DNA of 23,185 nucleotides from a virus. Positions 3,092-23,047 of the stretch are shown piece after piece; position 1 is the stretch's first letter, and each line of letters begins with the position of its first letter. The notes under the pieces are model-generated. The model saw only the letters and a list, made by a program, of their open reading frames with translations, was not told the origin of the DNA and ran no database searches. The stretch covers positions 1 to 23,185 of the IMG/VR virus record IMGVR_UViG_3300031566_000380. One strand, given 5' to 3'. The position numbers were made by a program, and so were the translations under genes.

Positions 3092-3099
3092 TTGATTCA

Positions 3100-3147
3100 A
3101 AGCAGGGCACGATTTGAGTGGAGGCTTTTTCTCTTCACGCCCTGCTT
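3100..3147. repeat. Intergenic inverted repeat
   Basis: A perfect 9-bp inverted repeat (AAGCAGGGC at 3100-3108, GCCCTGCTT at 3139-3147) is separated by 30 bases, between the 110-residue and 315-residue genes. No U-tract follows it on the minus strand, so it is not a standard terminator. It could slow or process the late mRNA. Confidence 0.45.
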
Positions 3148-3159
3148 AAAATACTCGAG

Positions 3160-3492
3160 TTATTTTCTCTTTCTGGACTTTTTGGGTTTGATTTCTTCAA
3201 ACTCTTCCTCCTTCTTCTCAACTTTTACACTTTCCTTTGGCGTTTCTATCACTGGTTCTGGAATATCAACCTTACCTACATATGACTCGGCCATTTCCTT
3301 TTCTTTGTCTTCAGTAACCTTATCAACGCCAATTCTAACCCTGACCTTATAGGCCAATTGGTTTGCCAAGTGTCTGGCCAATTTCTCGGTGAATACTTTT
3401 GATTCACCAGCTTTAAGTGTATATGGTTCGCCATGAAACATACCCTCAAAGTCCTCACTGTCAGTATTTGTGAATGTTTTTAATACTTCCAT
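3160..3492 (-). CDS. Small phage structural-region protein
   Basis: 110 residues. The first half (TNTDSEDFEGMFHGEPYTLKAGESKVFTEKLARHLANQLA) follows a pattern common in tailed-phage proteins near the capsid gene: a D-F-x-G-x-W/F-x-G-x-x-Y-x-I/L-x-A-G-E-S core followed by A-x-H-L-A. The C-terminal third is a charged Lys/Glu/Pro tail ending KPKKSRKRK. No SD precedes the ATG (context AAAATTATGG); an AGGAG lies about 45 bases upstream but is buried in the hairpin at 3508-3577. A virion-associated role is inferred from position. Confidence 0.7.
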   Translation of the reverse strand: MEVLKTFTNTDSEDFEGMFHGEPYTLKAGESKVFTEKLARHLANQLAYKVRVRIGVDKVTEDKEKEMAESYVGKVDIPEPVIETPKESVKVEKKEEEFEEIKPKKSRKRK

Positions 3493-3507
3493 AATTTTGT
3501 TTTTATT

Positions 3508-3577
3508 ACTAACGACCTTTACTCAGTTCTATCTCCTTATGTACAAGCATAAAGAGATAGTCAGAATATTCGTTAGT
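3508..3577 (-). promoter_or_regulatory. Large intercistronic hairpin in the late mRNA
   Basis: Two nested inverted repeats: an outer 8-bp arm (ACTAACGA at 3508-3515 with TCGTTAGT at 3570-3577) and an inner 13-bp arm (3529-3541 with 3548-3560, loop of 6). The one inner mismatch is a G-U pair when read on the minus strand, which favours an RNA structure on the transcribed strand. The stop codon of the upstream decoration-like gene lies in the outer arm. No U-tract follows. It may set the relative expression of capsid and connector genes by mRNA stability or processing. Confidence 0.55.
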
Positions 3578-4061
3578 GTCCTGCCGTTTGAGCGTCAAGA
3601 AATGGATACATAAGTTGGAAAGTGGTTGAGGTGTTCCCTGAACTTGCGTCCATAGAACTTCTTAAGAAAGCGCCATAGATTACGTCTCCTGCTGTCGGGT
3701 TTTGTCCTACCGAGCCATCTGCGGAAGTTCTCCCGCAAACTGCTGGGGCAGTCCAAGCCGCGTCAGCATAAGACTTACCTACGGTTGTTCCCCAAATACA
3801 ATACCATCCATACTTACCAGCAACAGTTGCCGCTTGGGCAACAGCTACTGAGCCGAGTGCTCCGGTAGCAAGTAATGTGGTTTGATACTCATCGTTAGAA
3901 TCGTATGTAACCCATGAACCAGCTACGGTGCTTGCAACTCCCTTTAGGAAGATGTACTCGCCTCCGTCTTGGTCAACAAATCTTGTGCCTAATTGCACAG
4001 CAGTCCTTGAATATATCGTGTCTATATCTCCTGGAGAGATACCTCTTGTAAATTCTGCCAT
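3573..4061 (-). CDS. Capsid decoration-like protein, copy B
   Basis: 162 residues, Ala/Gly/Thr/Ser-rich and probably beta-structured, with no signal or membrane segment. It is a close paralogue of the next gene upstream: both start MAEFT, share YSRTA-QLGTR, EYIFL-GVASTVA-SWVTYDS, QTTLLA--ALG-VAVA-AA-VA-KYGWY-IWG and the ending YP--D-QTA-H. By eye well over half of the positions match. Small proteins of this pattern, right after the capsid gene, are often annotated as decoration or minor head proteins; that is inference here. No SD precedes the ATG. Confidence 0.75.
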   Translation of the reverse strand: MAEFTRGISPGDIDTIYSRTAVQLGTRFVDQDGGEYIFLKGVASTVAGSWVTYDSNDEYQTTLLATGALGSVAVAQAATVAGKYGWYCIWGTTVGKSYADAAWTAPAVCGRTSADGSVGQNPTAGDVIYGAFLRSSMDASSGNTSTTFQLMYPFLDAQTAGH

Positions 4062-4091
4062 AATTTTGAAGCGGAATCTACATCACGCAGT

Positions 4092-4583
4092 TTAGTGAGC
4101 AGCCGTTTGATCGTCTACGTAAGGATAATGAATTGAGAACGTTGTTGCGGCGCTTGTATTTGTATCTGCCATTGCACTTCGTACAATACAATTATAAATA
4201 ATATCGCCTGCTGGTGGGTCGTCGCCGACATAACCGTCAGCTCCTGTCCTACCAACAACATCACTCACATCAAGAACAGCAGTACTATAATTCGCAGCAC
4301 CACTGACGTTGCCCCAAATCATGTACCAACCATATTTATCAGCTACGATTGCGGCCATAGCTACTGCTACTGGCCCCAAAGCGTTTGCCGCTAATAAAGT
4401 TGTTTGATGTTCGGCGCTACTGTCATATGTTACCCACGAAGTAGCTACTGTGCTTGCTACACCTCTTAAAAAGATGTATTCGTTACCATCGGTGTCAAAT
4501 GCTCTTGTGCCTAATTGTATGGCGGTTCTGCTGTAAACTGTCGTAATGCCACCAGGAGCTATTACTCCTGTAAATTCTGCCAT
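4092..4583 (-). CDS. Capsid decoration-like protein, copy A
   Basis: 163 residues and the tandem partner of the gene at 3573-4061, lying directly between it and the major capsid gene (5-base gap to the capsid stop). It shares the same N-terminus, the GVASTVA-SWVTYDS block and the KYGWY-IWG block. The copies differ most in the C-terminal third, where surface loops would be expected to vary. The duplication is old enough that the DNA has diverged although the reading frames stay intact. Likely a capsid-bound cement or decoration protein, by position and copy number. Confidence 0.75.
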   Translation of the reverse strand: MAEFTGVIAPGGITTVYSRTAIQLGTRAFDTDGNEYIFLRGVASTVATSWVTYDSSAEHQTTLLAANALGPVAVAMAAIVADKYGWYMIWGNVSGAANYSTAVLDVSDVVGRTGADGYVGDDPPAGDIIYNCIVRSAMADTNTSAATTFSIHYPYVDDQTAAH

Positions 4584-4588
4584 AGTTT

Positions 4589-5647
4589 TTAGGAAGTGTA
4601 ACTAACCTCAATTCCCTGATGTCTCGGGGAGTCAGCGATTAAGTTACCCATCAAGATTATATGACCGACTTTTCCGTATTGATCTATTGGCTTGTTGAAT
4701 CCACTAAACGCAAATCCAGTTACTTTCGGAACGTCTGTGTGTACTGATTCTATTGAACCACCACCAAACTTTACTGATTTGTATTCTGGGTCTGTTGATT
4801 GTAATCCATAGAAAGCAAGATGTTTTAAGTTCAACATATAAAGATAATTTGCTGAACATTTTTCATCTACTACTATTGGACAACCAGAGAACCATAATAC
4901 ATCAAAACCTTTATCACCTTTTAGAGCTTGAACACTTGGCGCAATACCACTTCTGGTCATTTGAGGATACCCAGTATTTGAATACTGAATAACTCCATAT
5001 GAAGTTGTGGTGATTACTAATGCTTCGTATCTTGCCCATCCAGTTTTAGAGGTTACAATAATGTCCGGTTTTTCTGCACCATGCGTACAGTTAGCATATT
5101 TCGTCCTTAAAAGGGCGATAGTCATTGCCGCAGAAGATGCAGTATAAATTCCAGATAAACCATAAGTGCTTCGGTCTAATCCACCATATGTGGCTCCTCC
5201 TAAAGTCTCATTGTCACAAGCGTTAATCAAGGAAAGAAATGTCTTGCCTGTCTGTAGGGTGTGAAGAAGTGTTCCAAGAGCGTCAATCATATCTTCTGCG
5301 CGTGATTCCATTTCACGAGCAATAATATCGATAGGATTGTTTTGCGCCTTGACTAAGTCAACTTCCATTTGAGATAACGAAACGTTTATCTCATAACCCG
5401 TTGGCTGGAAAGTCATTACTTCGAATGAATCGCTTAATGCTGTTGAGAATTTGTCCAAACCATCAAACGAAGTTCCACTAATACCAACTTGATATTTTAC
5501 CGGGAATTTCGCTTTCCATGGTCTTTGGCTTCCCAAAATTCTTAAGGTGACTGGTGATGCATTTAGAACAGTATCTATTGTCTTTGCAACTAATTTTTCT
5601 GTAGACGCAGAATATATCCGCGCTACACTCGTTGGATCTAATGCCAT
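4589..5647 (-). CDS. Major capsid protein
   Basis: 352 residues, in the expected position after portal and scaffold-like genes and before the decoration-like genes. The order and features fit an HK97-fold capsid protein: an N-terminal helix region (residues 1-40), a long alpha/beta middle with a helix rich in acidic residues near 110-125 (REMESRAEDMIDALGTLLHTL), a PDIIVTSKTGWARYE segment typical of the P-domain region (about 195-210), an FSGCPIVVDEKC strand near 270 and a C-terminal beta region. There is no N-terminal delta domain, consistent with a separate scaffold. The ATG has only a distant GGAGG, which sits over a 7-codon overlapping frame. Family assignment is by position and pattern, not by search. 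Confidence 0.85.
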   Translation of the reverse strand: MALDPTSVARIYSASTEKLVAKTIDTVLNASPVTLRILGSQRPWKAKFPVKYQVGISGTSFDGLDKFSTALSDSFEVMTFQPTGYEINVSLSQMEVDLVKAQNNPIDIIAREMESRAEDMIDALGTLLHTLQTGKTFLSLINACDNETLGGATYGGLDRSTYGLSGIYTASSAAMTIALLRTKYANCTHGAEKPDIIVTSKTGWARYEALVITTTSYGVIQYSNTGYPQMTRSGIAPSVQALKGDKGFDVLWFSGCPIVVDEKCSANYLYMLNLKHLAFYGLQSTDPEYKSVKFGGGSIESVHTDVPKVTGFAFSGFNKPIDQYGKVGHIILMGNLIADSPRHQGIEVSYTS

Positions 5648-5661
5648 AATTTTTCAGTCAT
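5638..5661 (-). promoter_or_regulatory. Seven-codon overlapping frame at the capsid gene start
   Basis: A good SD (GGAGG) stands 4 bases before an ATG at 5661 that opens a 7-residue frame (MTEKLWH) ending in TAG at 5638. The capsid ATG at 5647 lies inside this frame in another phase and is 17 bases from the same GGAGG, too far for normal use. Ribosomes loaded at the mini-frame would stop just past the capsid start and could restart there. Confidence 0.4.
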
Positions 5662-5713
5662 TTGCCTCCATACTAATCTTTTTCGACCTTTCAGATTGTC
5701 TGTAAAGAATGGT

Positions 5714-6385
5714 TTAACCTTGCGATAATTCGTCAAAACTCTTATTGCGAATCTCGCTATAGTCAAATCCTTGTTCTGTTCCAGTTGATTTTTGAGAAGT
5801 GCCTACTTGTGAACCTGCCTCTTGTTTGACTTGAGTTTTCACCTTGGCGATAACTTTGCCCCCCTCCCTTTTGGCTTCTTGGAGGTCTTTCCAATCTAAT
5901 CCGGCAGTCATGAGGTCTTTGTTTTTGCCTTGTTTCTTTTGAGAAATGGCATATTCAATTACCGCATCTTCATCTGCCTTTGATTGGATAATACCTCTTG
6001 CCTTTAACTCGTCCAGTTGAGAATCAATCTGACGATTGACTTTCTGGTCTTCTTCTAACTTAACGCGTCTTTGTTCGTCTTGGAGTTTTAAAAACCCCTT
6101 AACTGTCAATGGCGCATCATCGTCTTGGAATTCGTTGGACTTGTTAATACCTTTAAGGGCTTCATTGATTGCTTCTTGGTTTTTCTTTATCTCCGACAAC
6201 TCTTGTCGGGTTAGGGTATAACCTTTCTGCAATGCCTGTGCTAACTCATAGGTCTTATCAACGGTGATAGGTTCTTCTTCGGTTTTCTCTGACTGTTCCT
6301 CTGGGGCAACTTCTTCGGTAACGACTTCTTCTGTCGTTTCTTCGGTTGTTTCCTCAGGGACTTGGTCAATATTTTCTTCTTCCAT
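5714..6385 (-). CDS. Probable capsid scaffolding protein
   Basis: 223 residues, strongly acidic and helical. Residues 1-45 are a Glu/Thr/Val-rich low-complexity tail, residues 45-130 have coiled-coil character (LSEIKKNQEAINEALKGI, QDEQRRVKLEEDQKV), and the C-terminus is polar (Gly/Ser/Gln) and charged, with no Cys. An acidic helical protein of this size directly before the major capsid gene is the usual place and look of a scaffold, which binds the inside of the procapsid and leaves before packaging. No protease motif is visible, so maturation by cleavage cannot be inferred from it. Confidence 0.75.
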   Translation of the reverse strand: MEEENIDQVPEETTEETTEEVVTEEVAPEEQSEKTEEEPITVDKTYELAQALQKGYTLTRQELSEIKKNQEAINEALKGINKSNEFQDDDAPLTVKGFLKLQDEQRRVKLEEDQKVNRQIDSQLDELKARGIIQSKADEDAVIEYAISQKKQGKNKDLMTAGLDWKDLQEAKREGGKVIAKVKTQVKQEAGSQVGTSQKSTGTEQGFDYSEIRNKSFDELSQG

Positions 6386-6408
6386 AAGTATTGGTCTTAA
6401 CGACTTGC

Positions 6409-6651
6409 TTAATTTTTAAACGACCTTTTAATGCCTCCCTTAAAGTCTTCATTTATTACTTGTTTCCAATTTCTATTATCTCCTTCCATCAAAACCATAT
6501 TTCCATAAACTAAACACGATTTCGCATCATAATTCTTATCATGTCCCAAGCAGTGTTTATTTATCTCACTAAAATCTTCCTTGCTTACTTTAAAAATCTC
6601 GCCAACCTTTCGTTCCTTAAATGCAAAATCATATAAATCTTGTGAAGTCAT
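6409..6651 (-). CDS. Unknown small late protein
   Basis: 80 residues, mixed charge, with no membrane segment. It has two Cys (C34 and C46), a CLVYGNMVLMEGDNRNW stretch that looks like two beta strands with a turn, and a basic end. Its ATG overlaps the stop of the 48-residue gene upstream by 4 bases (ATGA), so it is translated by coupling. The family is not recognised; position suggests a head-assembly accessory. Confidence 0.6.
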   Translation of the reverse strand: MTSQDLYDFAFKERKVGEIFKVSKEDFSEINKHCLGHDKNYDAKSCLVYGNMVLMEGDNRNWKQVINEDFKGGIKRSFKN

Positions 6652-6794
6652 TTTTTTAACATTTCCACATATCTTTCTTTTGCGGATTTCTTTTTCTTAA
6701 CTATCTTACTTCCATATTTCTCAGTCCATCGTTTTGCGATGGTTGGTTCTTTTGCATATAAGTATTTGCGTTGAGATTCCGATCTAAACGGCAT
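6648..6794 (-). CDS. Small basic phage protein of the 'SxxQRRYMYAxxPxxAKRW' type
   Basis: 48 residues, very basic. The N-terminus MPFRSESQRKYLYAKEPTIAKRW closely follows a widespread tailed-phage micro-protein pattern (MPxxSxAQxRwmyAnxPexAkrw), usually found in the structural region and of unknown role; this is recalled, not searched. The C-terminus is lysine-rich (KKKKSAKERYVEMLKK). It is bounded by the stop of the gene upstream (one base from its ATG) and an ATGA overlap with the gene downstream, which supports it as a real gene. Confidence 0.7.
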   Translation of the reverse strand: MPFRSESQRKYLYAKEPTIAKRWTEKYGSKIVKKKKSAKERYVEMLKK

Positions 6795-6795
6795 A

Positions 6796-7023
6796 TTATC
6801 TATTTTTATAATACTTATCTCTTTGTTTTAACATTTCTTTGCGTTCAAATGTATCATAATCCCAATCGCCAGTTTCCTTGTTCTTATGTCCATAGTCCTT
6901 CTTGTATTTTTCTAAAATGGAATCAACCTTATCCATATTTAAAATGTTTCGTTTCTTCTTTTTCTTAGAAGACAATACTTGAAGTCGGTGTGTGTATAAA
7001 TCGTCGTATGTTTTTGCATTCAT
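6796..7023 (-). CDS. Unknown small basic late protein
   Basis: 75 residues, very rich in Lys, Tyr and Asp, with a KKKKKRN run and a charged helical second half. The start is well supported: AGGAGG lies 9 bases before the ATG, just past the portal stop at 7026. No recognised domain. It belongs to the run of three small genes between portal and scaffold. Confidence 0.65.
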   Translation of the reverse strand: MNAKTYDDLYTHRLQVLSSKKKKKRNILNMDKVDSILEKYKKDYGHKNKETGDWDYDTFERKEMLKQRDKYYKNR

Positions 7024-7025
7024 AT

Positions 7026-8714
7026 TTATTGTCCTCCTTTAATTTTCTCCACTATTTGTTTAGCTTTTTGAATTGCTTGTGCTTTTTCATTATCGGGAAG
7101 TTTTTGAAACTCTGGGCTACTTACCATTTGCTGAACCTTTTGAAGTTGCTGTGCCTTTTGTTCTTCTCCCCCTGGCTGTGCTTGAATGCCAGCTACTGCT
7201 TCTGGATTTATTTTTCCTGTCATTGCTAACCACTCGTATAATCTTTTAGTTCTTTCTTCTTCTTCTCCATAACCAAGTTCTTCAAACATTGTAGGTGGGT
7301 CAACCATACCAAATTGAGCCAGTTTAATAGTCATTTCTGCCCTTGATGCTTTGTCTACTGGAAGCGTAGAACCCTTTTTGACTAAAACCTTAGTTCCTGG
7401 CGGGATTTCCTCACCCCTTAATTCAACGCCTTCGGTTCCATTATAGAGTTTTGTCGGTTCGTCTGAATAAACCTTGATACAATGTAAATAGGCATTGTAG
7501 AAATCTTCCATTAGCTGTTCTATGTTTTCAATAATCGTTTCTACCCTGCCATAGTCAGCACCTGCTAAAAGTTTCCTGCCACCAAGTGTTTCTGCTTCTT
7601 GTCTTTCACCACGTGTAGTTGAGTGAACACCCATTATATTGTCAATTTCATTCTTTGAATCTTGTAATTCATTAAACTCTGATGCCCCAATCTGTCCACC
7701 CTCAATCTTTATGTCGTTTATATCTCCCCTATCTAACCATAAGAACTTATTTCCATACTTATTGACGAACTTTTGTCCTTCTTCCTTGCTTATGGCTTTT
7801 GAAGAAGCCACAATTATCTTCTGATTGTCGTCTGTAAGGTCAGAAATCTGGCATTTTCGCTTGTTTATCCCGTCCTGTAAGGTAATTACTTGTTCAATTA
7901 AACTCGTATCATCATAAACCTGTTTACCGAGATTGAATACTTTTAAGAACAAATAAGGAAATTGCGCTGTTTTAAATAGGTTATTCTCTGGTGTGTCATA
8001 ATCAAAATTTGGATTCTTGATTTTGTCTAATAAGATTGAATTTAACTTCCAAGCAACCCATTCTCCATTTCCTCCCCAGAATTCTAAATACTTAATCTTC
8101 TTTTTAGGTAGGTCTGGATATAGTTGTTGGAGTTCTTTTTTCTTTTTAGGAAACTTTAAGATTACATTCTCAACAGAATCTTCTAACCATTCATAAATAA
8201 ACTCGCAATTAGACGCTTCGGTTGCTCTTGGGTCAATACCTATCCTGTCCGTGCGGACAAACTCTAATATAAATCCTTCATCCCAGCGATACTTCCACAC
8301 ACCTAATCGGTAGATAAACCAACTCCTAACGATCCGTTGAAGTTTTTGTTTGACCTTAAGGGTTACCTCGTAAGCGATAGTCAGTCCTTTAATCAGTTTC
8401 TCCCTAATAGTATTGTCAACCTCTCCTGCTATTTCTGGTGTAGGTGTTTCTGCCGTGACCATAGGAATCAATGTCTCAACGGACATAAAGATTCTATTGT
8501 CTACGATATTGGCTCTTTTGGGATTGCGGTCTTCATCTTTTAGGTCTGTTCCTTTGCGCCAGTACTTCTCGTTTCTTAATCCAATAACATCGGCAATCTC
8601 TTTGTCTTTTTTCGCTTCTTCAACTGCCGCATCTATGGCTCTTAACAAGTCATCTTCGTTGGCATTGTATTCTAACGATGCTCGTTCCGCGTCTATAATT
8701 TCTTCGATTTCCAT
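7026..8714 (-). CDS. Portal protein
   Basis: 562 residues, within the usual portal range. It lies downstream of the large terminase and upstream of the scaffold and capsid genes. Visible family features are an early MSVETLIPMVTAETPTPEI segment, a middle with YRLGVWKYRWDEG and DRIGIDPRAT (beta-rich wing or clip region), and a later region IDNIMGVHSTTRGERQEAETLGGRKLLAG followed by a long helix, a common portal signature around the tunnel helices. The C-terminal 80 residues are Gln/Glu/Lys-rich and helical, like a barrel or crown extension. The portal forms the dodecameric vertex through which terminase pumps DNA. The start follows the previous stop by one base. Confidence 0.88.
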   Translation of the reverse strand: MEIEEIIDAERASLEYNANEDDLLRAIDAAVEEAKKDKEIADVIGLRNEKYWRKGTDLKDEDRNPKRANIVDNRIFMSVETLIPMVTAETPTPEIAGEVDNTIREKLIKGLTIAYEVTLKVKQKLQRIVRSWFIYRLGVWKYRWDEGFILEFVRTDRIGIDPRATEASNCEFIYEWLEDSVENVILKFPKKKKELQQLYPDLPKKKIKYLEFWGGNGEWVAWKLNSILLDKIKNPNFDYDTPENNLFKTAQFPYLFLKVFNLGKQVYDDTSLIEQVITLQDGINKRKCQISDLTDDNQKIIVASSKAISKEEGQKFVNKYGNKFLWLDRGDINDIKIEGGQIGASEFNELQDSKNEIDNIMGVHSTTRGERQEAETLGGRKLLAGADYGRVETIIENIEQLMEDFYNAYLHCIKVYSDEPTKLYNGTEGVELRGEEIPPGTKVLVKKGSTLPVDKASRAEMTIKLAQFGMVDPPTMFEELGYGEEEERTKRLYEWLAMTGKINPEAVAGIQAQPGGEEQKAQQLQKVQQMVSSPEFQKLPDNEKAQAIQKAKQIVEKIKGGQ

Positions 8715-8715
8715 A

Positions 8716-8913
8716 TTATTGTAAGTTTAAAACTTCACTAACTTTTTTCACACAAGCCGGACAAAGAGCATATTCCTTTTTGACTACCTGCTCTCCTTCC
8801 TTTGGTTGGTGTTTTATAAAATTAAAAGTTTTGACCTTTTCTATAAAGCCAAAACTACCATACTCTACTCCTGTTATTTCTTCTCCGCAGTTGTCGCAGT
8901 ATATCTTTACCAA
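8716..8913 (-). CDS. Small zinc-ribbon protein
   Basis: 65 residues with CxxC at residues 6-9 (CDNC) and CxxC near 51-54 (CPAC), the spacing of a treble-clef or zinc-ribbon fold; the linker is charged. The start is a TTG: AGGAGG stands 7 bases before it, and no nearer ATG exists. The stop is one base from the portal ATG, so the two are translationally coupled. The role is unknown; small zinc ribbons are common in phage late and early operons. Confidence 0.65.
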   Translation of the reverse strand: MVKIYCDNCGEEITGVEYGSFGFIEKVKTFNFIKHQPKEGEQVVKKEYALCPACVKKVSEVLNLQ

Positions 8914-8924
8914 TCTTTTGCCTC

Positions 8925-9017
8925 CTATAATTTAATTAAAATCAAATATAACTCTATTACTATAATCGCGCCTCCTACAAGTTTTGCTAATTGTATTTTT
9001 GTTTCAAACTTGTCCAT
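8925..9017 (-). CDS. Possible 30-residue membrane peptide
   Basis: A 30-codon frame starts at an ATG at 9017 inside the end of the upstream gene and ends just at the AGGAGG that serves the zinc-ribbon gene. After a charged start (MDKFETK) the last 17 residues are hydrophobic (LVGGAIIVIELYLILIKL), enough for one membrane span. A weak AGGA lies about 12 bases upstream of the ATG. The fit into the gap between two genes supports it, but its length leaves doubt. Confidence 0.4.
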   Translation of the reverse strand: MDKFETKIQLAKLVGGAIIVIELYLILIKL

Positions 9018-9406
9018 TTATTTAAAACTTCCTGATAATCTTTTTCTATCACTTTTGCATCCTTTCCCTTAAACATTTCTTTCTTCATAAAGTCAACTAC
9101 TACCCTTGGCATAATTTCTTTTGAATCATACCCACCAAGTAAATCCCAATATGATATAATTCCATCTAAAACTCCAGGTTCCCACATTTCGTGTATATGT
9201 ATTCCTCGCCAACGCTTGCCTTGAACCAATGCATTGAATCCGTCCATCTTGTATTCGCTCTCCATTTCTTTATGTAATCCTCTTTCTGACCACCCCAAAA
9301 ACATTTCTTCATCCTTTTCGGTTATGGGCGGATATTTACAATTTGAAGGAATAAAGTATTTTATACACTCAATGTCATTTCGTTGTTTTTTTGTTTGTGC
9401 CTCCAT
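8987..9406 (-). CDS. Unknown protein after the large terminase
   Basis: 139 residues, soluble and mixed charge, with several Trp (for example KRWRGIHIHEMWEPG). It starts 5 bases after the terminase stop, with no good SD, so coupling is likely. The HIHEMW stretch holds two His and a Glu, but there is not enough context to claim a metal site. No family recognised; a packaging-linked role would only be inferred from position. Confidence 0.65.
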   Translation of the reverse strand: MEAQTKKQRNDIECIKYFIPSNCKYPPITEKDEEMFLGWSERGLHKEMESEYKMDGFNALVQGKRWRGIHIHEMWEPGVLDGIISYWDLLGGYDSKEIMPRVVVDFMKKEMFKGKDAKVIEKDYQEVLNKWTSLKQKYN

Positions 9407-9411
9407 ATATT

Positions 9412-11043
9412 TTATACGCGCCAGTCCTTAATTTGATGATTAAATTGTTCTTCTTCTATGCGTTTTATGTCTGGTGCTTGAGGATTGTAAGCCATTTTGT
9501 CTGAACCCTTAATCGGAACATCTATGATACTTGCATTTCCACTTCGTTGTAGGGCAAGAAAGAAGTAAATCGTAGCAAATAGTAAGTGATTCTCTCCTTC
9601 TGTTTCCCAAACTTTGCGAGTTATACCTATACTATCGGTTTCTTCTACCTGTGAGAGTGTTTCCCAATGTTTTACATAAGTGCCTAATCTGTCGGGTTCT
9701 ATGAAGAACTTTATCTTTCCATCTACGAATTCATCTATAACTCTTTGGATAATCTTTGACCTGTCAGCATATACGGCCATTTCGGGAGAATCCCATTTAA
9801 TTGATTCTGGACGATCCTTGTCTCTTTTAAAATAACATAACCATACACGACCTCTGTACTTATCTCTTAACTGGCGTGGCTTGGTAAGGTCTCCCAGAGC
9901 GTCAAATACCGCTGTGGCTTCATATTTGCGCATTAGTGCCTCTATTTCGTCCCAAGAGGTAGTTTGACCCACTTTGAATACTCCTTGCTTATTTCCCAAT
10001 ACATAACTCATTGTAAGCCCGGTATCTACGCCTATGACGTTGTTTATTTCAAGGTTCTCTCCGTTTACTACGTTTCTTAAAATCAACTCTTTGTCTACGA
10101 CTACATCTGTTCCCCTATAAGGTAATCCTAAATGAAAGTTATAAAAATACTGCTTACTCTTGGTTGCTTCTGCTTCTATCAGGGTTTTGGCTGAAATCCA
10201 GGGACAGATTAAGTGCGAAATCCAATAACCTGATATACCTTCTCTGTGTGAATACTTTTTAACCCAACGACCATTTCTGCGCGTATCATCGTCTATTATT
10301 CCGTGACATTTCTTACATACATACTCGCCTATTTCTTTGTCTATGTTTTCAAACCAATCTAAGTATTGTTCTTCTTTGCAGTGTGGACATTTTATAAACC
10401 AATGCTTCTGGTCTGATTTGTCCCATACCTTTTGAGTTAAAGTATTTGGATGTGTAGGATTTGAGAAATACCATCTACCCTTGTAATCTGAAGCGGCTAA
10501 ACGTGATTCATACTGCTCTAAAATTGCTTGTGTTGATCGGTCTGATTCATCCATTACTAATAGGTCTGCGGTCAACATAATACCTGTACCTGATTCCATT
10601 TCATCTTTTGATTGCTTACCTGAACTTGCGCCACGATAATAAATAAACCTTTCGCCTACCTTTTTCTGATTGACTGAATCCTTATCTCTTGTCCATTCGC
10701 TTAACTGGGCATTTGTACTGATTATAGGATTTACCTTTGATGGTACAAATTGTCCTACATCATTGAAAGTCGGTAAACTGTAGATTATATTCCATTTTTT
10801 ATACTTTGCGGCATATAGAGATTTAAGTATCTCCATTGTGCTGAATCCCACCTGCGAAGCCTTACGGGCTGTCTGTATTGGTGTCCAGTCGTCAAATGGT
10901 TCTTTAAGAAACTTATGGTCTGTGAATTCAAATGGTAATCCCTTCTCTGTTAAAATGTGCGTATCTTCAAGCCAAAATATTGGTTCTTTCTCCCAAGAAG
11001 CCCTTTGTAGTTCAGTAAAGTAATTTTTGCTTATTTCTTTCAT
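9412..11043 (-). CDS. terL: Terminase large subunit, GpA type
   Basis: 543 residues from the ATG at 11043 (a TTG three codons upstream is the only alternative). This is the ATP-driven DNA-packaging motor plus nuclease. Residues 59-69 (ARKASQVGFST) match the deviant Walker A of lambda gpA (KSARVGYSK). LLVMDESD at 161-168 is Walker B. A zinc insertion follows, with CPHC at 219-222 and CKKC at 243-246, as in the GpA family. The C-terminal RNase H-like nuclease shows GVDTG (D340), VFDALGD (D381) and NHLLFAT (H486). It overlaps the upstream 94-residue gene by 32 bases. All key motifs are intact, so the protein should be active. It works with the portal gene downstream and probably the HTH-like protein at 13767-14162. 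Confidence 0.92.
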   Translation of the reverse strand: MKEISKNYFTELQRASWEKEPIFWLEDTHILTEKGLPFEFTDHKFLKEPFDDWTPIQTARKASQVGFSTMEILKSLYAAKYKKWNIIYSLPTFNDVGQFVPSKVNPIISTNAQLSEWTRDKDSVNQKKVGERFIYYRGASSGKQSKDEMESGTGIMLTADLLVMDESDRSTQAILEQYESRLAASDYKGRWYFSNPTHPNTLTQKVWDKSDQKHWFIKCPHCKEEQYLDWFENIDKEIGEYVCKKCHGIIDDDTRRNGRWVKKYSHREGISGYWISHLICPWISAKTLIEAEATKSKQYFYNFHLGLPYRGTDVVVDKELILRNVVNGENLEINNVIGVDTGLTMSYVLGNKQGVFKVGQTTSWDEIEALMRKYEATAVFDALGDLTKPRQLRDKYRGRVWLCYFKRDKDRPESIKWDSPEMAVYADRSKIIQRVIDEFVDGKIKFFIEPDRLGTYVKHWETLSQVEETDSIGITRKVWETEGENHLLFATIYFFLALQRSGNASIIDVPIKGSDKMAYNPQAPDIKRIEEEQFNHQIKDWRV

Positions 11044-11296
11044 TGGCTTCAAGTTCTTGTTCTCTCTCTTGTTTGTCCTGTTTTAATTGTTGAATGTCTA
11101 CTATCTTACCATCGGGTTGCTTTTCTAAATGTCTATATCTGTCAAAGAATTCTCGTTCTCCCTCTCTGTATGGTTGAACTGTTAATCCCTCTTTGTCGGC
11201 TAATTCTTTCTCTTTGAGAATAACTTCTTTGTCTATACCTAAATCATCGTCTCGCATTATTACTTTATCCTTGTTTCTGTAAACCTCATACATCAT
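11012..11296 (-). CDS. Unknown charged protein before the large terminase
   Basis: 94 residues. The first 60 are mixed charge with short beta patterns (MMYEVYRNKDKVIMRDDD), and the C-terminal 35 are a Gln/Glu/Lys helix likely to coil. The ATG overlaps the stop of the small gene upstream (ATGA), and its 3' end overlaps the large terminase. A second ATG is adjacent. A small-terminase role is possible from position, but no DNA-binding motif is visible, and the protein at 13767-14162 is the better candidate. Confidence 0.6.
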   Translation of the reverse strand: MMYEVYRNKDKVIMRDDDLGIDKEVILKEKELADKEGLTVQPYREGEREFFDRYRHLEKQPDGKIVDIQQLKQDKQEREQELEANERNKQKLLY

Positions 11297-11397
11297 AAGC
11301 TATTGCTTTTAAGTAAGTTTTTTGGATATGAACATGTTGTTTTATGACATTTCTTTCTTGCTCTTTCTTTTGGATTTTTGAAAATTCCTTTTGGCAT
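11293..11397 (-). CDS. Small basic protein between groEL and the terminase cluster
   Basis: 34 residues, MPKGIFKNPKERARKKCHKT then a short polar end; one third of residues are Lys or Arg, and two Cys (C17, C22) flank a His. The start is two bases after the groEL stop codon and the stop overlaps the next ATG in an ATGA, so it fits exactly between two genes. No SD. Function unknown; the charge suggests nucleic-acid contact. Short length limits confidence. Confidence 0.5.
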   Translation of the reverse strand: MPKGIFKNPKERARKKCHKTTCSYPKNLLKSNSL

Positions 11398-11399
11398 AT

Positions 11400-12950
11400 T
11401 TATTTGCTCTTATCTCCGTCCCAACAAATTGCTGCTTCCATTGTTAAAAATATACCAGCCATTGAAGAAGCGTTTTGTAATGCGCATCTTGTGACCTTTA
11501 ATGGGTCTATAATACCTGCTTCCATCATATCTACGCTTTCATTTTTATTAAAATCAAATCCCTTATCGTTTTGAACGTCATTTACTATGACTGAAATATC
11601 TTTCATTCCCGAGTTCTCTGCTATCTGTCTTAATGGAGAAATTAGTGCTTTCTTGACTATGTTAGCGCCTACTCTTTCATCATCGGTTAAATCTTTAAAG
11701 TCCATCATGGAGGATACTTTGACTAATGCTATGCCTCCTCCGGGAACAATACCTTCTTCTATTGCGGCTCTTGTGGCGTTTAAAGCGTCTTCTATTTTGA
11801 ACTTCTTATACTTCATTTCCGCTTCTGTTGCTGCGCCTACACGAATAATTGCTACGCCGTCTGTTAGTTTAGCTAATCTATCCTTTAGAGAATTCTTCAT
11901 CCAGTCTTCTGTGGCTTCTTTGAGCTGACTTTTAATAAGTTTAATCCTTTCAGATACATCGCCATTGCCTATTATGAGGGTTTTCTTATCATTGCTTACG
12001 ACTTTGTCTGCTTTTCCTAATACATCTAAACCTACTTTATCAAGTTTAATTCCTGACTCTTCTGATATGAATTTAGCCCCAGTTAGTAATGCTATGTCTT
12101 CTAATACATCTTTCTTTCGCGCCCCATAACTTGATGCCTTTATACCCAATACATTAAATCCTCCCTGTGCTTTACTTAAAAACATAGTTCCTAATGCTTC
12201 TCCGCTTATATCTTCGGCTATTACAAATAAATTTCTCTGACTCTTTTCGTCCATCTTTTGCAATAAGGGAACTATATCTGAATTAGCGAATATCTTTTGG
12301 TCTGTGATAAGAACTGGTATGTCTCTGTAAATTGCTTCGTTTCTTTCTATGTCCGTGACCATAAATCTTGAAATGAATCCATTGTCTATCTGCATTCCTT
12401 TGGTGAGTTCTTTTGATATGCCGAATGTTTGTGATTCTTCTACGGTTACTACTCCATTCTCGCCTACTTCTTTAATCACTCCGGCTATCATCTTACCCAT
12501 TTCTATATCTTCGGCTGCTATAATAGCTACTTGTTCTGCTTCATCTTTGACTGGTTTCTTGATTGTATTTAAAAGTTCTATTGCTTGGATTGTTGCTTTA
12601 TCTATGCCTCGCTTAATACTCATAGGATCTGAACCGGCTACTACATTCTTGATTCCTTCTTCAATCATTGCGTAAGCTAATACTACTGCTGTTGTCGTTC
12701 CGTCTCCTGCTTGGTCATTTGTCTTCTCGGCTACTTCTTTTAAAAGTTCTGTGCCTATGCTTTCTACTGCGTCATCTGTTTTAACTGATTTAGCTACCGT
12801 TACTCCATCATTGGTAATAACTGGCTTGGTGTCTTGTATAACTACATTTCTGCCTCTTGGGCCTAATGTAATCCTTACTGCGTTATACATTACCTCCATT
12901 CCCTTTTTTATTTGTTGTCTTGCTTCGTCTGAAAACTTATTATGCCTCAT
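11400..12950 (-). CDS. groL: Phage chaperonin GroEL (Hsp60)
   Basis: 516 residues, a complete group I chaperonin subunit that forms ATP-driven folding rings. Visible landmarks are TLGPRGRNVV at 28-37, ITNDGVT (D48, matching E. coli D52), AGDGTTT (D83, matching D87), the intermediate-domain return EDALNATRAAIEEGIVPGGG (matching D398 and G414-416), and a full apical domain in which GMQIDNGFISRF replaces E. coli GMQFDRGYLSPYF with hydrophobic groove positions kept. The apical segment GIKASSYGARKK departs from the usual VKAPGFGDRRK. The C-terminus stops about 13 residues after the equatorial domain (LTMEAAICWDGDKSK) and lacks the Gly-Gly-Met tail. It overlaps groES by 11 bases and lies in the late virion operon, so its clients are probably capsid or other virion proteins. 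Confidence 0.97.
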   Translation of the reverse strand: MRHNKFSDEARQQIKKGMEVMYNAVRITLGPRGRNVVIQDTKPVITNDGVTVAKSVKTDDAVESIGTELLKEVAEKTNDQAGDGTTTAVVLAYAMIEEGIKNVVAGSDPMSIKRGIDKATIQAIELLNTIKKPVKDEAEQVAIIAAEDIEMGKMIAGVIKEVGENGVVTVEESQTFGISKELTKGMQIDNGFISRFMVTDIERNEAIYRDIPVLITDQKIFANSDIVPLLQKMDEKSQRNLFVIAEDISGEALGTMFLSKAQGGFNVLGIKASSYGARKKDVLEDIALLTGAKFISEESGIKLDKVGLDVLGKADKVVSNDKKTLIIGNGDVSERIKLIKSQLKEATEDWMKNSLKDRLAKLTDGVAIIRVGAATEAEMKYKKFKIEDALNATRAAIEEGIVPGGGIALVKVSSMMDFKDLTDDERVGANIVKKALISPLRQIAENSGMKDISVIVNDVQNDKGFDFNKNESVDMMEAGIIDPLKVTRCALQNASSMAGIFLTMEAAICWDGDKSK

Positions 12951-13185
12951 ATAAACCCAGTATATCTTCTCTTGATACGATTAAATAATTATCCTCCACT
13001 TCGTAAGCGCCATACTTTTTGAATAAAACTTTGTTGCCTATTACTAAATCCTTAACCCCTGAACCTACTTCAATTATCTTTCCAATTTCAGGCAGCTCTT
13101 CTTTGGTCTTTGCCAATACTATACTTCCTTCGGTTTTCTCTTTTTCGGGTTCTATTAAAATGTGATTGTCTAATGGTTTAAGCAT
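12940..13185 (-). CDS. groS: Phage co-chaperonin GroES (Hsp10)
   Basis: 81 residues against about 95 in bacteria. The barrel core is recognisable: LKPLDNHILIEP (E. coli IRPLHDRVIVKR), the mobile-loop tripeptide IVL in EGSIVLA, IGKIIEVGSG, VIGNKVLFKKYGAYEV and the ending LIVSREDILGLYEA (E. coli VLIMSESDILAIVEA). The segment between VGSG and the next strand is about nine residues shorter than in E. coli, which removes the roof hairpin. It binds the GroEL encoded next to it through the mobile loop and caps the folding chamber. The ATG overlaps the stop of the previous gene by 8 bases with no SD of its own, so translation is coupled. Confidence 0.95.
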   Translation of the reverse strand: MLKPLDNHILIEPEKEKTEGSIVLAKTKEELPEIGKIIEVGSGVKDLVIGNKVLFKKYGAYEVEDNYLIVSREDILGLYEA

Positions 13186-13570
13186 GTAATTTAAGCCACA
13201 ATTTAGCTACTGCTTCTTCGGGGGTTTTGCCACAGCCACTTACATCATTTTCTCCAAGAATAGTTTTACAAGAATCACAAATTTTTCTTCCCTCTCCTTC
13301 GGCAAAAGCGAACCATGTTAATTTTCCATCCATATCTGTTCCTCCTTCTAATTCTTTAAATCTATCTCCACAAGCATCTATGAGTTCTGAAAGGGTAGAA
13401 ACTTTACAGATAAATGCCTTTTCTCCTTCTGCGTTTACTCCGCAGGTATCATAACTTCCACATTTATTTGCGAGAACTGGCTTATCTAGTTCGTCAATGC
13501 AATATCCTGTTTCTAACTTGTCCTGTGGAAATCCTGCTTCTTTTAATTGTTTTGCTAATTCGTAGTTCAT
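13178..13570 (-). CDS. Phage protein of the 'AKQLKEAGF / LSELIDACGD' family, copy 1
   Basis: 130 residues. It shares with the gene at 17261-17656 the start (Y-LAKQLKEAGF), the centre STLSELIDACGD-F--L and the end KTPEEAVA-LWLKL. This pattern is frequent among phage hypotheticals, but its function is unknown to me. The copy here has eight or so Cys, including CDSC near 97-100 and CGVN and CIDE segments, which its partner lacks, so it may bind zinc. It is coupled to both neighbours: ATGA with the upstream gene and an 8-base overlap with groES. Confidence 0.75.
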   Translation of the reverse strand: MNYELAKQLKEAGFPQDKLETGYCIDELDKPVLANKCGSYDTCGVNAEGEKAFICKVSTLSELIDACGDRFKELEGGTDMDGKLTWFAFAEGEGRKICDSCKTILGENDVSGCGKTPEEAVAKLWLKLHA

Positions 13571-13770
13571 AAATGCATATTTTCTTTAGCTTGTTTATTT
13601 GCAAGTTCTAAATCCGTTTCTGGTTTTTCGTATTCTAATAATTCTGCGTTGCCTTTTTTAATTTCTTCTACGATTTTCTTATTCTTTCTTTCTATTACTT
13701 TAATATTGCCGTCTCTAAGCAAATAGCCAAATCCTATTGAGATGAAAATTATGAGGGCTTGTAAAATCAT
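13567..13770 (-). CDS. Small single-span membrane protein
   Basis: 67 residues. Residues 1-18 (MILQALIIFISIGFGYLL) form one membrane helix, followed by a charged helical cytoplasmic-looking tail rich in Lys and Glu. Both ends are in ATGA overlaps with their neighbours. Size and layout resemble spanin-like or membrane-tether micro-proteins, but no lysis gene is near, so no function is proposed. Confidence 0.65.
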   Translation of the reverse strand: MILQALIIFISIGFGYLLRDGNIKVIERKNKKIVEEIKKGNAELLEYEKPETDLELANKQAKENMHL

Positions 13771-14162
13771 TTTTGTTTACGCCATTTAATATAATTTTTT
13801 AAATCATCTAAATCTATTGGTGTTTGTTCTGTTCTGTCTGTTGGATTTCCTGTAAGTAATTCTATATTTTTTGTAAGTGTATCTATTGAACTAATTAAAT
13901 CTTTATATCCTGCTGAATTTCTTTTCTCGTTTGTAATTGATTTAATTGCTTTATCTCTTTCTTTTACCAATTCATCTACAAATGGTTTTAATCCTTCTTT
14001 AACTCCATCACTTTCATAAATTGCCTTTGGTCTTTTTGTGGTGCTTTTTGCATAACCACTTTTTTCTAAAATTTTACCTTTAATTATCCTCTTGCCTTTT
14101 CGTAAGTTTTCAGAAGTCAATTTAATTACACTCTCTTTGTTAGGAGTTAATTCTTTTTCCAT
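13767..14162 (-). CDS. Probable terminase small subunit or related DNA-binding protein
   Basis: 131 residues from the ATG at 14162; a TTG one codon earlier is possible. Residues near 30-55 (GKILEKSGYAKSTTKRPKAI) read as a helix-turn-helix of the kind seen in small terminases and related phage proteins, where an xAGYSxSTAxxP motif is typical. The middle is a charged helical region suited to oligomers, and the end (DLDDLKNYIKWRKQK) is basic. It is the second gene of the late operon, seven genes before the large subunit; recognition of the packaging site is inferred. The TGA of the gene upstream overlaps the ATG (TGATG). Confidence 0.55.
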   Translation of the reverse strand: MEKELTPNKESVIKLTSENLRKGKRIIKGKILEKSGYAKSTTKRPKAIYESDGVKEGLKPFVDELVKERDKAIKSITNEKRNSAGYKDLISSIDTLTKNIELLTGNPTDRTEQTPIDLDDLKNYIKWRKQK

Positions 14163-14875
14163 CAATTATTTATTTGTCCTCCTATGTATATTCCCCCTGC
14201 TTCTAAGTTTCTAATTATTGCTGAAATCCATTTAAGGTTATTTCCGAATACTTGATACATATTCACATCTACATCTGGTGCGGCAATATCTACTCCTGTG
14301 TTTCCATCAATGCTTGAAGCGGTTTGTAAATCATAGACATCTAGGTAGTCCCAACGATTACTCGTTGATTGAGATGCTAAAAAGTTCGGTTCAGTATTCT
14401 GAATCGAACCTACAAAATATACAGATCCACTTGCTGTTGAATTTGCCGATAAGCTATATACAAAGCTTCTTCCTTGTGAAGCATCAAATACTCTTCCTAC
14501 CGGAGCGACACTAAATAATTCTCCACCCGTACTTGAAGCTGTAATTTCTATTGCGCTTTCTATTGAACTATATGCTACGGCAAATCCTTCATCTGATGCT
14601 GAAACAATATAGTAAGGATAATCCATTTCCAAGTTAGCCAATGTTCCGTCTCCCGCATCAAGATATACATAAGTGCCAACTGATAATGTCGCTGTTATGT
14701 CTCCACTATAAAGTATTCCACCCTCGTGATAAGAAACCGATGCCGAGTCCGCTGCTATATTATTAAAAATATATGACTCCGGCATTACTGCGCCTCCGAG
14801 TCCTTTGTTGTTGAATATGAAATATCCACCAATTAAAACTACTACTACGACTAAACTAATTATTATCTTTTTCAT
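14162..14875 (-). CDS. Anchored, beta-rich surface protein (first late gene)
   Basis: 237 residues. A basic start and a 16-residue hydrophobic stretch (IIISLVVVVVLIGGYFIF) make a signal anchor, and the remaining 210 residues are Ser/Gly/Thr/Tyr-rich with alternating patterns typical of beta sandwiches. The final part (NRWDYLDVYDLQTASSIDG... then KWISAIIRNLEAGGIYIGG) resembles domains seen in phage structural hypotheticals. The start is firmly supported by GGAGGA five bases before the ATG. It is the first gene after the folded leader at 14899-14967. Like the fibre gene at the window's left end it has an N-terminal membrane anchor, an odd shared trait. Confidence 0.7.
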   Translation of the reverse strand: MKKIIISLVVVVVLIGGYFIFNNKGLGGAVMPESYIFNNIAADSASVSYHEGGILYSGDITATLSVGTYVYLDAGDGTLANLEMDYPYYIVSASDEGFAVAYSSIESAIEITASSTGGELFSVAPVGRVFDASQGRSFVYSLSANSTASGSVYFVGSIQNTEPNFLASQSTSNRWDYLDVYDLQTASSIDGNTGVDIAAPDVDVNMYQVFGNNLKWISAIIRNLEAGGIYIGGQINN

Positions 14876-14898
14876 ATTTGTCCTCCGTTAATTTTTAC

Positions 14899-14967
14899 AT
14901 ATGAGCCAATAACCTAACCCGAAGGTCGGTAAAATCATTTAATATCCCGAAGGATTGTGGCTCATAT
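14899..14967 (-). promoter_or_regulatory. Folded 5' leader of the late operon: three-way junction with two UUCG loops
   Basis: On the minus strand three stems can form together: P1, a perfect 10-bp pair (14958-14967 with 14899-14908); P2, ATCC-TTCG-GGAT (14944-14955); P3, seven pairs with one bulged A and a TTCG loop (14912-14930). Both loops are closed C-UUCG-G, the very stable tetraloop, only when read on the minus strand. P1 ends 14 bases before the GGAGG of the first late gene. It may be a riboswitch-like, translation-control or antitermination element; I know no family that matches. Confidence 0.6.
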
Positions 14968-14992
14968 TTTTAGTTTCAAGTTAAGTATTCTC

Positions 14993-15035
14993 GGGGTCAA
15001 CCAAACTTATTAAAATTTGCTGCGTGATTGACCCC
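14993..15035. repeat. Inverted repeat GGGGTCAA / TTGACCCC
   Basis: A perfect 8-bp inverted repeat (14993-15000 and 15028-15035) spaced by 27 bases, between the intrinsic terminator and the late leader. On the minus strand no U-tract follows. It could be an operator for a dimeric protein or part of an RNA pause or antitermination site. Confidence 0.5.
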
Positions 15036-15038
15036 TTG

Positions 15039-15101
15039 AAAAAAAGGCTGGACACCTTCTCAATGCTTGTTATTTCTAATAAGCACAGCGAAGTGTCCAG
15101 C
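15039..15101 (-). terminator. Intrinsic terminator between early and late genes
   Basis: On the minus strand GCTGGACAC (15101-15093) pairs with GTGTCCAGC (15055-15047). Further pairs inside (TTC/GAA and TGCTTATTA/TAACAAGCA) close on a GAAA loop, and seven U (15045-15039) follow at once. The GNRA-type loop and the U-tract both exist only on the minus strand. It lies about 50 bases downstream of the promoter at 15111-15139, so that promoter would normally yield only a short RNA of about 65 bases. Confidence 0.85.
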
Positions 15102-15110
15102 TTCAATTCT

Positions 15111-15139
15111 ATTCTATATTTTTTTTATTCGCTTGTCAA
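15111..15139 (-). promoter_or_regulatory. Late promoter candidate, TTGACA-17-TAGAAT
   Basis: The -35 (TTGACA, 15139-15134) is perfect and the -10 (TAGAAT, 15116-15111) matches five of six, with a 17-base spacer. It lies over the last codons of the 132-residue HTH/zinc gene and points at the late operon. Expected start is near 15104. The intrinsic terminator begins almost at once, which is the layout of a promoter controlled by antitermination. Confidence 0.65.
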
Positions 15140-15512
15140 ATCGTCCCAATTTGTCATTCAATTTCTTCAATAATAATTTATAAAAACCTTTTGTTTCTTC
15201 TTTTTTTGTCCCTGAAAGATTGCTTATTCTAACAATACAATTATTACAAAAATTGCCAGACCATTTATAGTGTTTCCAATTATTCTTAAATCTTTTTTCG
15301 CAGGAACAACATTTGTTTTTTATAATATATTTTTTTTTATTCGCCTCAATAAATTTATCAAGATATGACAACTTGCGACCTGTAAACAATAACATTAACT
15401 TGGATGCCGTTGTTTTTGAAATACCAAACCTTTTAATAATCTCTTTTGTTCTCGCGCCTTTTAAACATTCATTTTTTATTCGGGATAGTTTTCCCTTTGA
15501 CAATCTCTTCAT
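15114..15512 (-). CDS. HTH plus Cys4 zinc protein, candidate late-gene regulator
   Basis: 132 residues, very basic. Residues 21-42 (RTKEIIKRFGISKTTASKLM) are a clear helix-turn-helix. Residues 68-92 hold a Cys4 site (C68-x2-C71 and C89-x2-C92) with aromatic filler, a zinc ribbon. The C-terminus is a Lys-rich helix. It is the last gene before the terminator and its own 3' end contains a promoter aimed at the late genes. Lambda Q, at the same place, also combines DNA binding with a Cys4 zinc site, so a Q-like antiterminator is an attractive idea; sequence likeness to Q is not claimed. An endonuclease-associated DNA-binding protein is the alternative. ATGA overlap with the membrane peptide upstream. 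Confidence 0.7.
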   Translation of the reverse strand: MKRLSKGKLSRIKNECLKGARTKEIIKRFGISKTTASKLMLLFTGRKLSYLDKFIEANKKKYIIKNKCCSCEKRFKNNWKHYKWSGNFCNNCIVRISNLSGTKKEETKGFYKLLLKKLNDKLGRFDKRIKKI

Positions 15513-16070: not shown

Positions 16071-16352
16071 TTAAATTAGTTTTTGCTGGGTTAATCCCAA
16101 GTCATTGATAAGTTTATGTAATTCTATATGTTCCTCAAGTGGCGTTATTGATGGATTGAACCTTTCGCTGTGTTGCGTCATCCCTCTACCAGAAGGAATT
16201 TCAAATTTCTCGCCACACAGCTTACACTCCCAAGTCATATCTTCCTGTTCATAGTACGAACTTTTGTCGTCGCTATAATTATATCTTTTTCTTTCTCCGA
16301 CTTCTTTGAAAAAATCACGTATTGATTTTATTTCTCCAATTTTTGTTTTCAT
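16071..16352 (-). CDS. Small zinc-finger protein
   Basis: 93 residues. CKLCGEKF at about 43-50 gives CxxC; H61 and the later His residues (H75, H79) complete a possible C2H2-like site (CxxC, then TQHSERF, then EEHIELH). The first 40 residues are charged, and the end is helical. No SD in front of the ATG. Likely a nucleic-acid-binding accessory of the early operon; the function is not recognised. Confidence 0.6.
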   Translation of the reverse strand: MKTKIGEIKSIRDFFKEVGERKRYNYSDDKSSYYEQEDMTWECKLCGEKFEIPSGRGMTQHSERFNPSITPLEEHIELHKLINDLGLTQQKLI

Positions 16353-16396
16353 AAAATTAAGTTATACACTAATTACCTCTAAGTAAATCTTTTCTC

Positions 16397-22123: not shown

Positions 22124-22177
22124 AAAAAAGAGGCAGTAATGAATATCACAAGTTTTTAAGCCCATGTTTACTGCCTC
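22124..22177 (-). terminator. Intrinsic terminator of the short RNA
   Basis: Ten perfect base pairs (22168-22177 with 22130-22139) and six U at 22129-22124 on the minus strand. The loop of 28 bases is long because it contains the other arm of the second inverted repeat. It would stop transcripts from the promoter at 22218-22246 and from the gene at 22243-22446. Confidence 0.65.
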
Positions 22178-22210
22178 GTCTTTATTTCCTATTTGTCTTG
22201 TGATATTCAT
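22124..22210 (-). ncRNA. Short RNA with interleaved stems (candidate sRNA, or leaderless 32-codon frame)
   Basis: A promoter at 22218-22246 predicts a start near 22210-22212 and an intrinsic terminator ends at 22124, giving about 87 bases. Arm A (ATGAATATCACAAG, 22210-22197) is the extreme 5' end and pairs perfectly over 14 bp with A' (22152-22139). Arm B (GAGGCAGTAA read on either end, 22177-22168) pairs over 10 bp with B' (22139-22130), followed by six U. The order A-B-A'-B' is interleaved, as in an attenuator or pseudoknot. The same bases also open a 32-codon frame from the ATG at 22210 to TAA at 22112, which would run through the terminator. Confidence 0.5.
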
Positions 22211-22217
22211 ACTAATA

Positions 22218-22246
22218 ATACTATCAGATTAAAATGCCTCTGTCAA
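22218..22246 (-). promoter_or_regulatory. Promoter TTGACA-17-TAGTAT
   Basis: Perfect -35 (22246-22241), -10 matching four of six (22223-22218), spacer 17. The -35 lies in CACTTGACA and overlaps the last codons of the gene upstream. The A of an ATG (22210) is 8 bases after the -10, that is at the expected first base of the RNA; the -35 to ATG distance is 31. Confidence 0.65.
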
Positions 22247-22446: not shown

Positions 22447-22472
22447 ATACTCTTTATAATAAAACTAAGAAT

Positions 22473-22882: not shown

Positions 22883-22905
22883 AAAAACCCGTCAATTAAG
22901 ACGGG
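22883..22905 (-). terminator. Intrinsic terminator
   Basis: On the minus strand CCCGTC, loop TTAATT, GACGGG (22905-22888) followed by five U (22887-22883). Compact G+C-rich stem and U-tract make a standard rho-independent terminator. Confidence 0.75.
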
Positions 22906-23014
22906 AATTTGTCGTATCACTAAACACGAAAAAAGAGATTAAAAGTTTAACATCCTCTTTTGTGGTTAGTAGATAATAAAATTGTAGTTTGTGTTTAGTG
23001 ATAGTTTTCATTAT
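22883..23014 (-). ncRNA. Short transcription unit with a long stem (candidate sRNA, or leaderless 39-codon frame)
   Basis: A promoter at 23021-23047 and a terminator at 22883-22905 delimit about 130 bases. Near the 5' end TATCACTAAACAC (23003-22991) pairs over 13 bp with GTGTTTAGTGATA (22927-22915). Inside it AAAAGAG (22961-22955) pairs with CTCTTTT (22937-22931). A 39-codon frame (MKTITKHKLQFYYLLTTKED onward) runs from the ATG at 23011 to TGA at 22892, within the terminator arm, with its ATG about 3 bases from the predicted start. It may be an RNA, a leaderless micro-protein gene, or both. Confidence 0.5.
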
Positions 23015-23020
23015 TTTTAG

Positions 23021-23047
23021 CTTATATCAATTAAATGTCTGTGTCAA
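23021..23047 (-). promoter_or_regulatory. Promoter with CACTTGACA -35 and TATAAG -10
   Basis: Perfect -35 TTGACA at 23047-23042. TATAAG (23026-23021) matches five of six but at a 15-base spacer; at 17 bases the hexamer would be TAAGCT. The A of an ATG at 23011 is 31 bases from the -35, the same distance as in the promoter at 22218-22246. Confidence 0.6.

Follow-up and report, generated by a model that had tools for sequence, protein, structure and literature searches.

A putative late promoter directly followed by a terminator in a probable Patescibacteria phage and the recurrence of this arrangement among its relatives

The Q families of lambdoid phages have been described together with the Q binding element (QBE), located between the -35 and -10 elements of the promoter, and a -10-like pause element in the initially transcribed region (PMC6606751; PMC7171158). 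The cellular regulator AlpA from Pseudomonas aeruginosa is a DNA-binding protein outside the Q families with two target promoters in the genome; its binding element, also between -35 and -10, has been demonstrated, and the terminator starts 54 nucleotides from the start site (PMC7969949). The locus analysed here shares with the Q-pR'-tR' regions of lambda, 21 and 82 a sigma70-type promoter beside a possible regulator gene, an early intrinsic terminator and late genes beyond it. It also resembles trp- and riboswitch-type attenuators and the put elements of HK022 in the succession of promoter, structured leader, terminator and gene, and in the leader motifs common to several units. In the open-access literature searched, we found no precedent for phage portal or capsid genes being preceded by promoter-terminator units, nor any report of promoter or terminator control in Patescibacteria phages.

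We analysed the complete IMG/VR record IMGVR_UViG_3300031566_000380 (23,185 bases, hereafter the window), all of whose likely genes are carried by the minus strand. Small early genes extend from about position 22,450 down to the gene of a 132-residue protein, after which the virion operon follows (Table 1). No relatives were found for the product of the first late gene. The capsid protein is best matched, among annotated phages, by one assembled together with its Saccharibacteria (TM7) host and by another from spring water (25-27% identity). The portal protein of a relative of the window matches the same two phages, TM7 phage DolZOral124_53_65 (MG269973) and Manatee Spring phage MW202566. Because these best annotated matches are a TM7 phage and a spring-water phage that both carry a chaperonin, a Patescibacteria host is likely, and the window probably represents an uncultured tailed phage of this group. 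A terminase 53% identical to that of the window is encoded on a contig (L085) in a metagenome-assembled genome labelled Nanoarchaeota, which reflects either a binning error or an archaeal relative.

Table 1. Features of the window discussed in the text, with their positions on the 23,185-base record
Feature	Position	Strand	Basis or remark
P4 module: TTGACA-17-TAAGCT, long nested hairpin, terminator 22905-22888 with T5	22883..23047	-	
P3 module: TTGACA-17-TAGTAT, then terminator 22177-22130 with T6	22124..22246	-	
132-residue basic HTH and Cys4 protein, candidate regulator; its gene is the last one ahead of the late leader	15114..15512	-	ORF, composition, model
Putative late promoter P1: TTGACA (15139-15134), 17-nt spacer, TAGAAT (15116-15111)	15111..15139	-	overlaps last codons and stop of the 132-residue gene
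Predicted intrinsic terminator: hairpin 15101-15047, C, T7 (15045-15039)	15039..15101	-	folding
Second leader hairpin, GGGGTCAATC.../...GGTTGACCCC, no U-tract	14993..15035	-	z = -4.5
Predicted three-way-junction RNA in the 5' UTR, just upstream of the ribosome-binding site of the first late gene	14899..14967	-	z = -3.9
Shine-Dalgarno GGAGG of the first late gene	14882..14886	-	sequence
First late gene, 237 residues, N-terminal membrane anchor	14162..14875	-	ORF; no family match
Late operon beyond the first late gene, including other virion genes	2..14165	-	
Probable TerS	13767-14165	-	
GroES	12940-13185	-	
GroEL	11400-12950	-	
TerL	9412-11052	-	
Portal	7026-8714	-	
Major capsid protein	4589-5647	-	

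The TTGACA-17-TAGAAT sequence that a first-pass annotation had placed in the final codons of the putative regulator gene is indeed located there (P1) and agrees with the sigma70 consensus at 11 of 12 positions. Shuffled windows contained about 1.05 sites of at least 11/12 on both strands together, or about 0.002 per 100 nt of one strand, corresponding to roughly one site of this grade per 46 kb of strand. With a weight-matrix score of 12.5, P1 is the second-best promoter on the minus strand, and the earlier claim that no better promoter precedes the virion operon also holds between the terminator and the first late ATG, where a scan from 15040 to 14876 gave a top site of only 7.05 (TTGACC-17-GAAACT, lacking a -10 element). 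Transcription is predicted to start near 15104, about 7 nt past the -10 element; a second TAGAAT overlaps P1 at -7 to -2. The TANNNT hexamer of the pause type is absent between +1 and about +25 of the P1 transcript. The spacer contains no direct repeat of at least 6 nt and none of the 21 type, although a site for an undescribed protein would escape such a scan.

The strong terminator with a GAAA loop and seven U reported close behind this promoter was borne out by folding, with its hairpin even within 10 nt of the -10 element. The hairpin comprises 55 nt with a predicted stability of about -26 to -27 kcal/mol (z = -5.3 against dinucleotide shuffles); it begins 9 nt past the -10 element, at approximately +4, and is missed by a simple stem scan because it has internal loops. 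The predicted terminated RNA would thus end at about +65 and contain hardly any sequence besides the hairpin. Folding of the complete intergenic leader exceeds chance by a wide margin (z = -5.75), and either side arm of the three-way junction can form a CUUCGG tetraloop cap. Searches of Rfam gave no match, including for this junction.

The likeness to lambda suggested in the first-pass annotation stands for the order of promoter, terminator and late operon and fails for the Q family and the pause element. Unlike the lambdoid systems, the window has no Q-family protein and no evident QBE or pause element, and its hairpin already starts near +4. Furthermore, lambdoid phages have one late promoter, whereas the relatives of the window repeat the unit before individual late genes, as described below. 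The likeness to attenuators and RNA antiterminators is also limited by the lack of an Rfam match and by alternative pairing between leader and terminator 5' arm that exceeds shuffled sequences only weakly.

Among 130 loci with related terminases, 103 remained after removal of near-duplicates. These contained 196 strict terminators, and we scored promoters with at least 10/12 consensus matches on the same strand up to 100 nt upstream. Such a promoter was located upstream of 32 of the 196 terminators, whereas the mirrored control windows contained one in 7 cases on the downstream side and in 7 and 6 cases on the other strand. The same scan recovers tR' of lambda as a positive control, with pR' 140 nt upstream, a longer distance than at the locus described here; it finds none in HK97 and one of 13 in 80alpha, on the minus strand. 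In 80alpha (L173), a terminator at 16335-16358 lies between rinA and terS with a weak promoter-like site 64 nt upstream.

The units are concentrated at late genes. Among portal genes, 43 of 101 have a strict terminator close to their start, a feature shared by just 20 of 535 other ORFs. A promoter together with a terminator was found at 20/101 portal and 7/68 capsid genes, compared with 7/535 other ORFs. When the 51 terminators that immediately precede a portal or capsid gene were scored by weight matrix, 75% showed a promoter-like site of at least 7 within 90 nt upstream, in contrast to 8% downstream and 12% at distant places. Near-complete genomes contain 91 non-buried terminators, of which 28 are preceded by a promoter and, as the control, 8 are followed by one. 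The P values for these enrichments (1e-14 and 1e-10) assume independence and overstate it because the loci share ancestry; the proportions make no such assumption. The order is also repeated in places before chaperonin genes. Of the closest annotated relatives by capsid and portal (25-29% identity, with a different gene order), MW202566 has a promoter and a terminator just before its capsid gene, and MG269973 a weaker pair of this kind before its chaperonin operon; their annotations do not describe these leaders. The module is absent from about half of the portal genes, including the window's own portal and likewise its capsid gene, and in the window's nearer subclade many portal genes lie in a plain operon with a Shine-Dalgarno sequence.

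Several leaders share sequence signals. In one record (L051), one putative late promoter precedes the capsid gene and another a 313-residue ORF; both are followed by AGAGTC-N5-GACCAGCAAGTGCTGGTT, in which GACCAGCAAGTGCTGGTT is the identical hairpin. In another record (L118), AGAGGTTKAAAC occurs in the portal leader as well as in the capsid leader. Of 11 short leaders, 7 have AGAG starting near +1, for which chance predicts about 2% (P of about 7e-10 if independent); the capsid proteins behind AGAG leaders show a mutual identity of about 50-78%, so that shared descent contributes to the recurrence. The longer portal leaders share a motif resembling AGCCCAAACC, with a log-likelihood of 55 compared with 29.5 (sd 2.6) in shuffles. 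An antiterminator formed by refolding, convincing by eye in the relatives' leaders, is not established: the mean pairing score was 10.3 against 9.4 (sd 0.4) in shuffles, with a combined P of 0.78. In the portal leader of L087 (6100-6200), CATCTAATTAGCGG is repeated at 21-bp spacing, possibly as a protein-binding site, and L093 contains a similar, imperfect repeat.

The window conforms to the clade in having promoter, terminator and late gene in this order on one strand but departs from it in leader spacing and signal. The distance from the -10 element to the hairpin is 9 nt compared with 10-70 nt in the relatives, that from U-tract to start codon about 160 nt compared with mostly 5-25 nt, and the AGAG of the relatives' short leaders is missing at +1. 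Because spacing and position differ from those of the relatives' units, the unit of the window may represent a separate answer to a common need.

The reading we favor, with moderate confidence, is that P1 is a late promoter whose transcription is cut off at once, that the virion operon is expressed by readthrough, and that the locus is one case of a clade-wide design. P1 would serve as a sigma70-type promoter whose transcripts end in the adjoining terminator, and polymerase reading past it would express the virion operon, whether through regulated antitermination or, most simply, as a set fraction of leak. In the clade, late units (portal, capsid and, in places, the GroES/GroEL operon) would each open with a promoter, a short leader and a terminator. 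Late genes could plausibly be controlled at the passage through the terminator because the relatives repeat the promoter-terminator order far above controls. We infer from the sequences that the promoters fire, that the hairpins terminate transcription and that expression is timed in this way, and, because the leaders are conserved, that readthrough is regulated. More tentatively, the late genes in this clade of Patescibacteria phages could form an antitermination regulon under one factor of an undescribed class. A genome would then contain several late promoters that are opened jointly, every one of them stopped by a terminator directly behind it and marked by a leader signal in common, for instance AGAG at +1. 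If so, antitermination would be spread over several promoters instead of a single master late promoter, in phages of hosts with tiny genomes. The short leaders (45-110 nt) offer a concrete reporter test and a sequence handle on the factor.

As for such a factor, the last early gene encodes, as previously noted, a basic HTH and Cys4 protein: it has 39 Lys/Arg and 9 Asp/Glu residues, a pI of 10.3, and cysteines at positions 68/71 and 89/92, and the single-sequence AlphaFold2 model contains an N-terminal three-helix domain (pLDDT of about 72-87) followed by a remainder of low confidence. Comparison of this low-confidence model with solved structures was uninformative, retrieving generic HTH proteins (best E of 0.69). 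The protein has no family match; a Pfam-A scan up to E = 1 listed none of PF03589, PF06530 and PF06323, and PF06530 and PF03589 were absent from the window and 25 related records, with positive E. coli controls. It has no relatives in IMG/VR, INPHARED or the ORFs of related loci, and no counterpart in phages with the same promoter-terminator layout. The NusG-type family PF02357 (RfaH and LoaP paralogues) was likewise absent from the window and the 25 records, with controls positive in 10 of 14 genomes. We found no regulator common to the 23 genomes or records compared; the widely shared proteins are only structural proteins, terminases and chaperonins.

The first-pass annotation regarded the 132-residue protein as a lambda Q-like factor that carries polymerase past the terminator, which we consider distinctly unlikely. 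Its gene adjoins P1 as the gene of lambda Q adjoins pR', the protein is basic with HTH and Cys4 features, and AlpA is a precedent for unrelated DNA-binding proteins capable of such antitermination (PMC7969949). However, like AlpA, with which the Pfam scan shows no homology, it lies outside the Q families, and neither relatives under the same layout nor the early -10-like hexamer and QBE-like direct repeat were found. The zinc-type Cys4 motif, previously taken as a likeness to Q, has no diagnostic value, since the 23 genomes or records contain 22 small basic proteins of the Cys4 type. The protein is one reasonable candidate for the factor, by its position and in this genome only.

Alternatively, the terminator could merely close the early operon, P1 being fortuitous or minor, with the late start at a promoter that depends on an activator or a phage factor, lacking a sigma70 consensus within 15035-14876. 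Activator-driven phages with late promoters that lack a -35 element are known, for example P2 with its Cys-rich Ogr; the second hairpin and the three-way junction leave space for regulatory DNA, and the compact gene order suits a simple early terminator. This explanation is unlikely considering the rank of P1 on a strand where such sites are rare by chance, and the relatives, which repeat promoter-then-terminator and not the reverse order. The module might also be a small-RNA gene whose stable RNA of about 65 nt acts in trans, while leak feeds the late genes incidentally. Its own promoter and strong terminator, and three such units with very stable folds in the window, fit this idea, but the P1 RNA is almost wholly terminator hairpin with no free seed, and the relatives' units precede portal and capsid start codons instead of standing free, which makes a small RNA improbable. 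Finally, the hairpin and U-run before the AUG in the relatives could be a translation or mRNA-stability element of genes without a Shine-Dalgarno sequence, since the U-run is often 5-20 nt from such an AUG. We regard this as very improbable: the U-run stays on the hairpin where the start codon is 75-165 nt away (L129, L057, L052, L063 and the window), and the first late gene of the window has its own GGAGG.

The layout recurs at the early end of the window, once clearly (P3) and once more weakly (P4), which the first-pass annotation did not mention. TTGACA occurs ten times on the minus strand, with TANNNT at 17 nt in four cases (starting at 23047, 22246, 21179 and 15139), but five times on the plus strand with no such partner (0/5). 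The strict minus-strand terminators are three in number, each directly 3' of one of these four sites; the promoter is of the TTGACA-17 type for the two strongest intergenic ones and TTGACA-17-TAAGCT for the third, which is weaker. In P3, a 14/14 inverted repeat (22210-22197 with 22152-22139) straddles and interlocks with the 5' arm of the terminator. As modelled, the full RNA reaches -26.2 kcal/mol with the terminator fold, by far the more stable, and +8.8 when forced to form the repeat, although the repeat by itself reaches -18.1 while the terminator is still incomplete. The predicted P3 start coincides with an ATG that opens a 32-codon frame reading across the terminator; for ORFs from the P1, P3 and P4 start sites across their terminators, chance expectation is about 6-17% each. 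P4 has a weak -10 element and would yield an RNA of about 130 nt, with about 400 nt beyond it lacking a clear gene.

We also considered boxA-like sites past terminators and rejected them as a signal, with eight sites compared with six in the reversed control. Two of the eight lie 15-22 nt beyond a promoter-terminator unit: TGTTCTTTAAAA at 22106-22095 of the window, 22 nt past the terminator, and TGTTCTTTGAAAAC at position 7316 of L074, 15 nt past it. The remaining TTGACA-17-TANNNT site of the window, TTGACA-17-TATACT at 21179-21140, lies 8 nt 5' of the ATG of a 61-residue HTH protein, and a near-leaderless mRNA is predicted for this gene because of that short distance.
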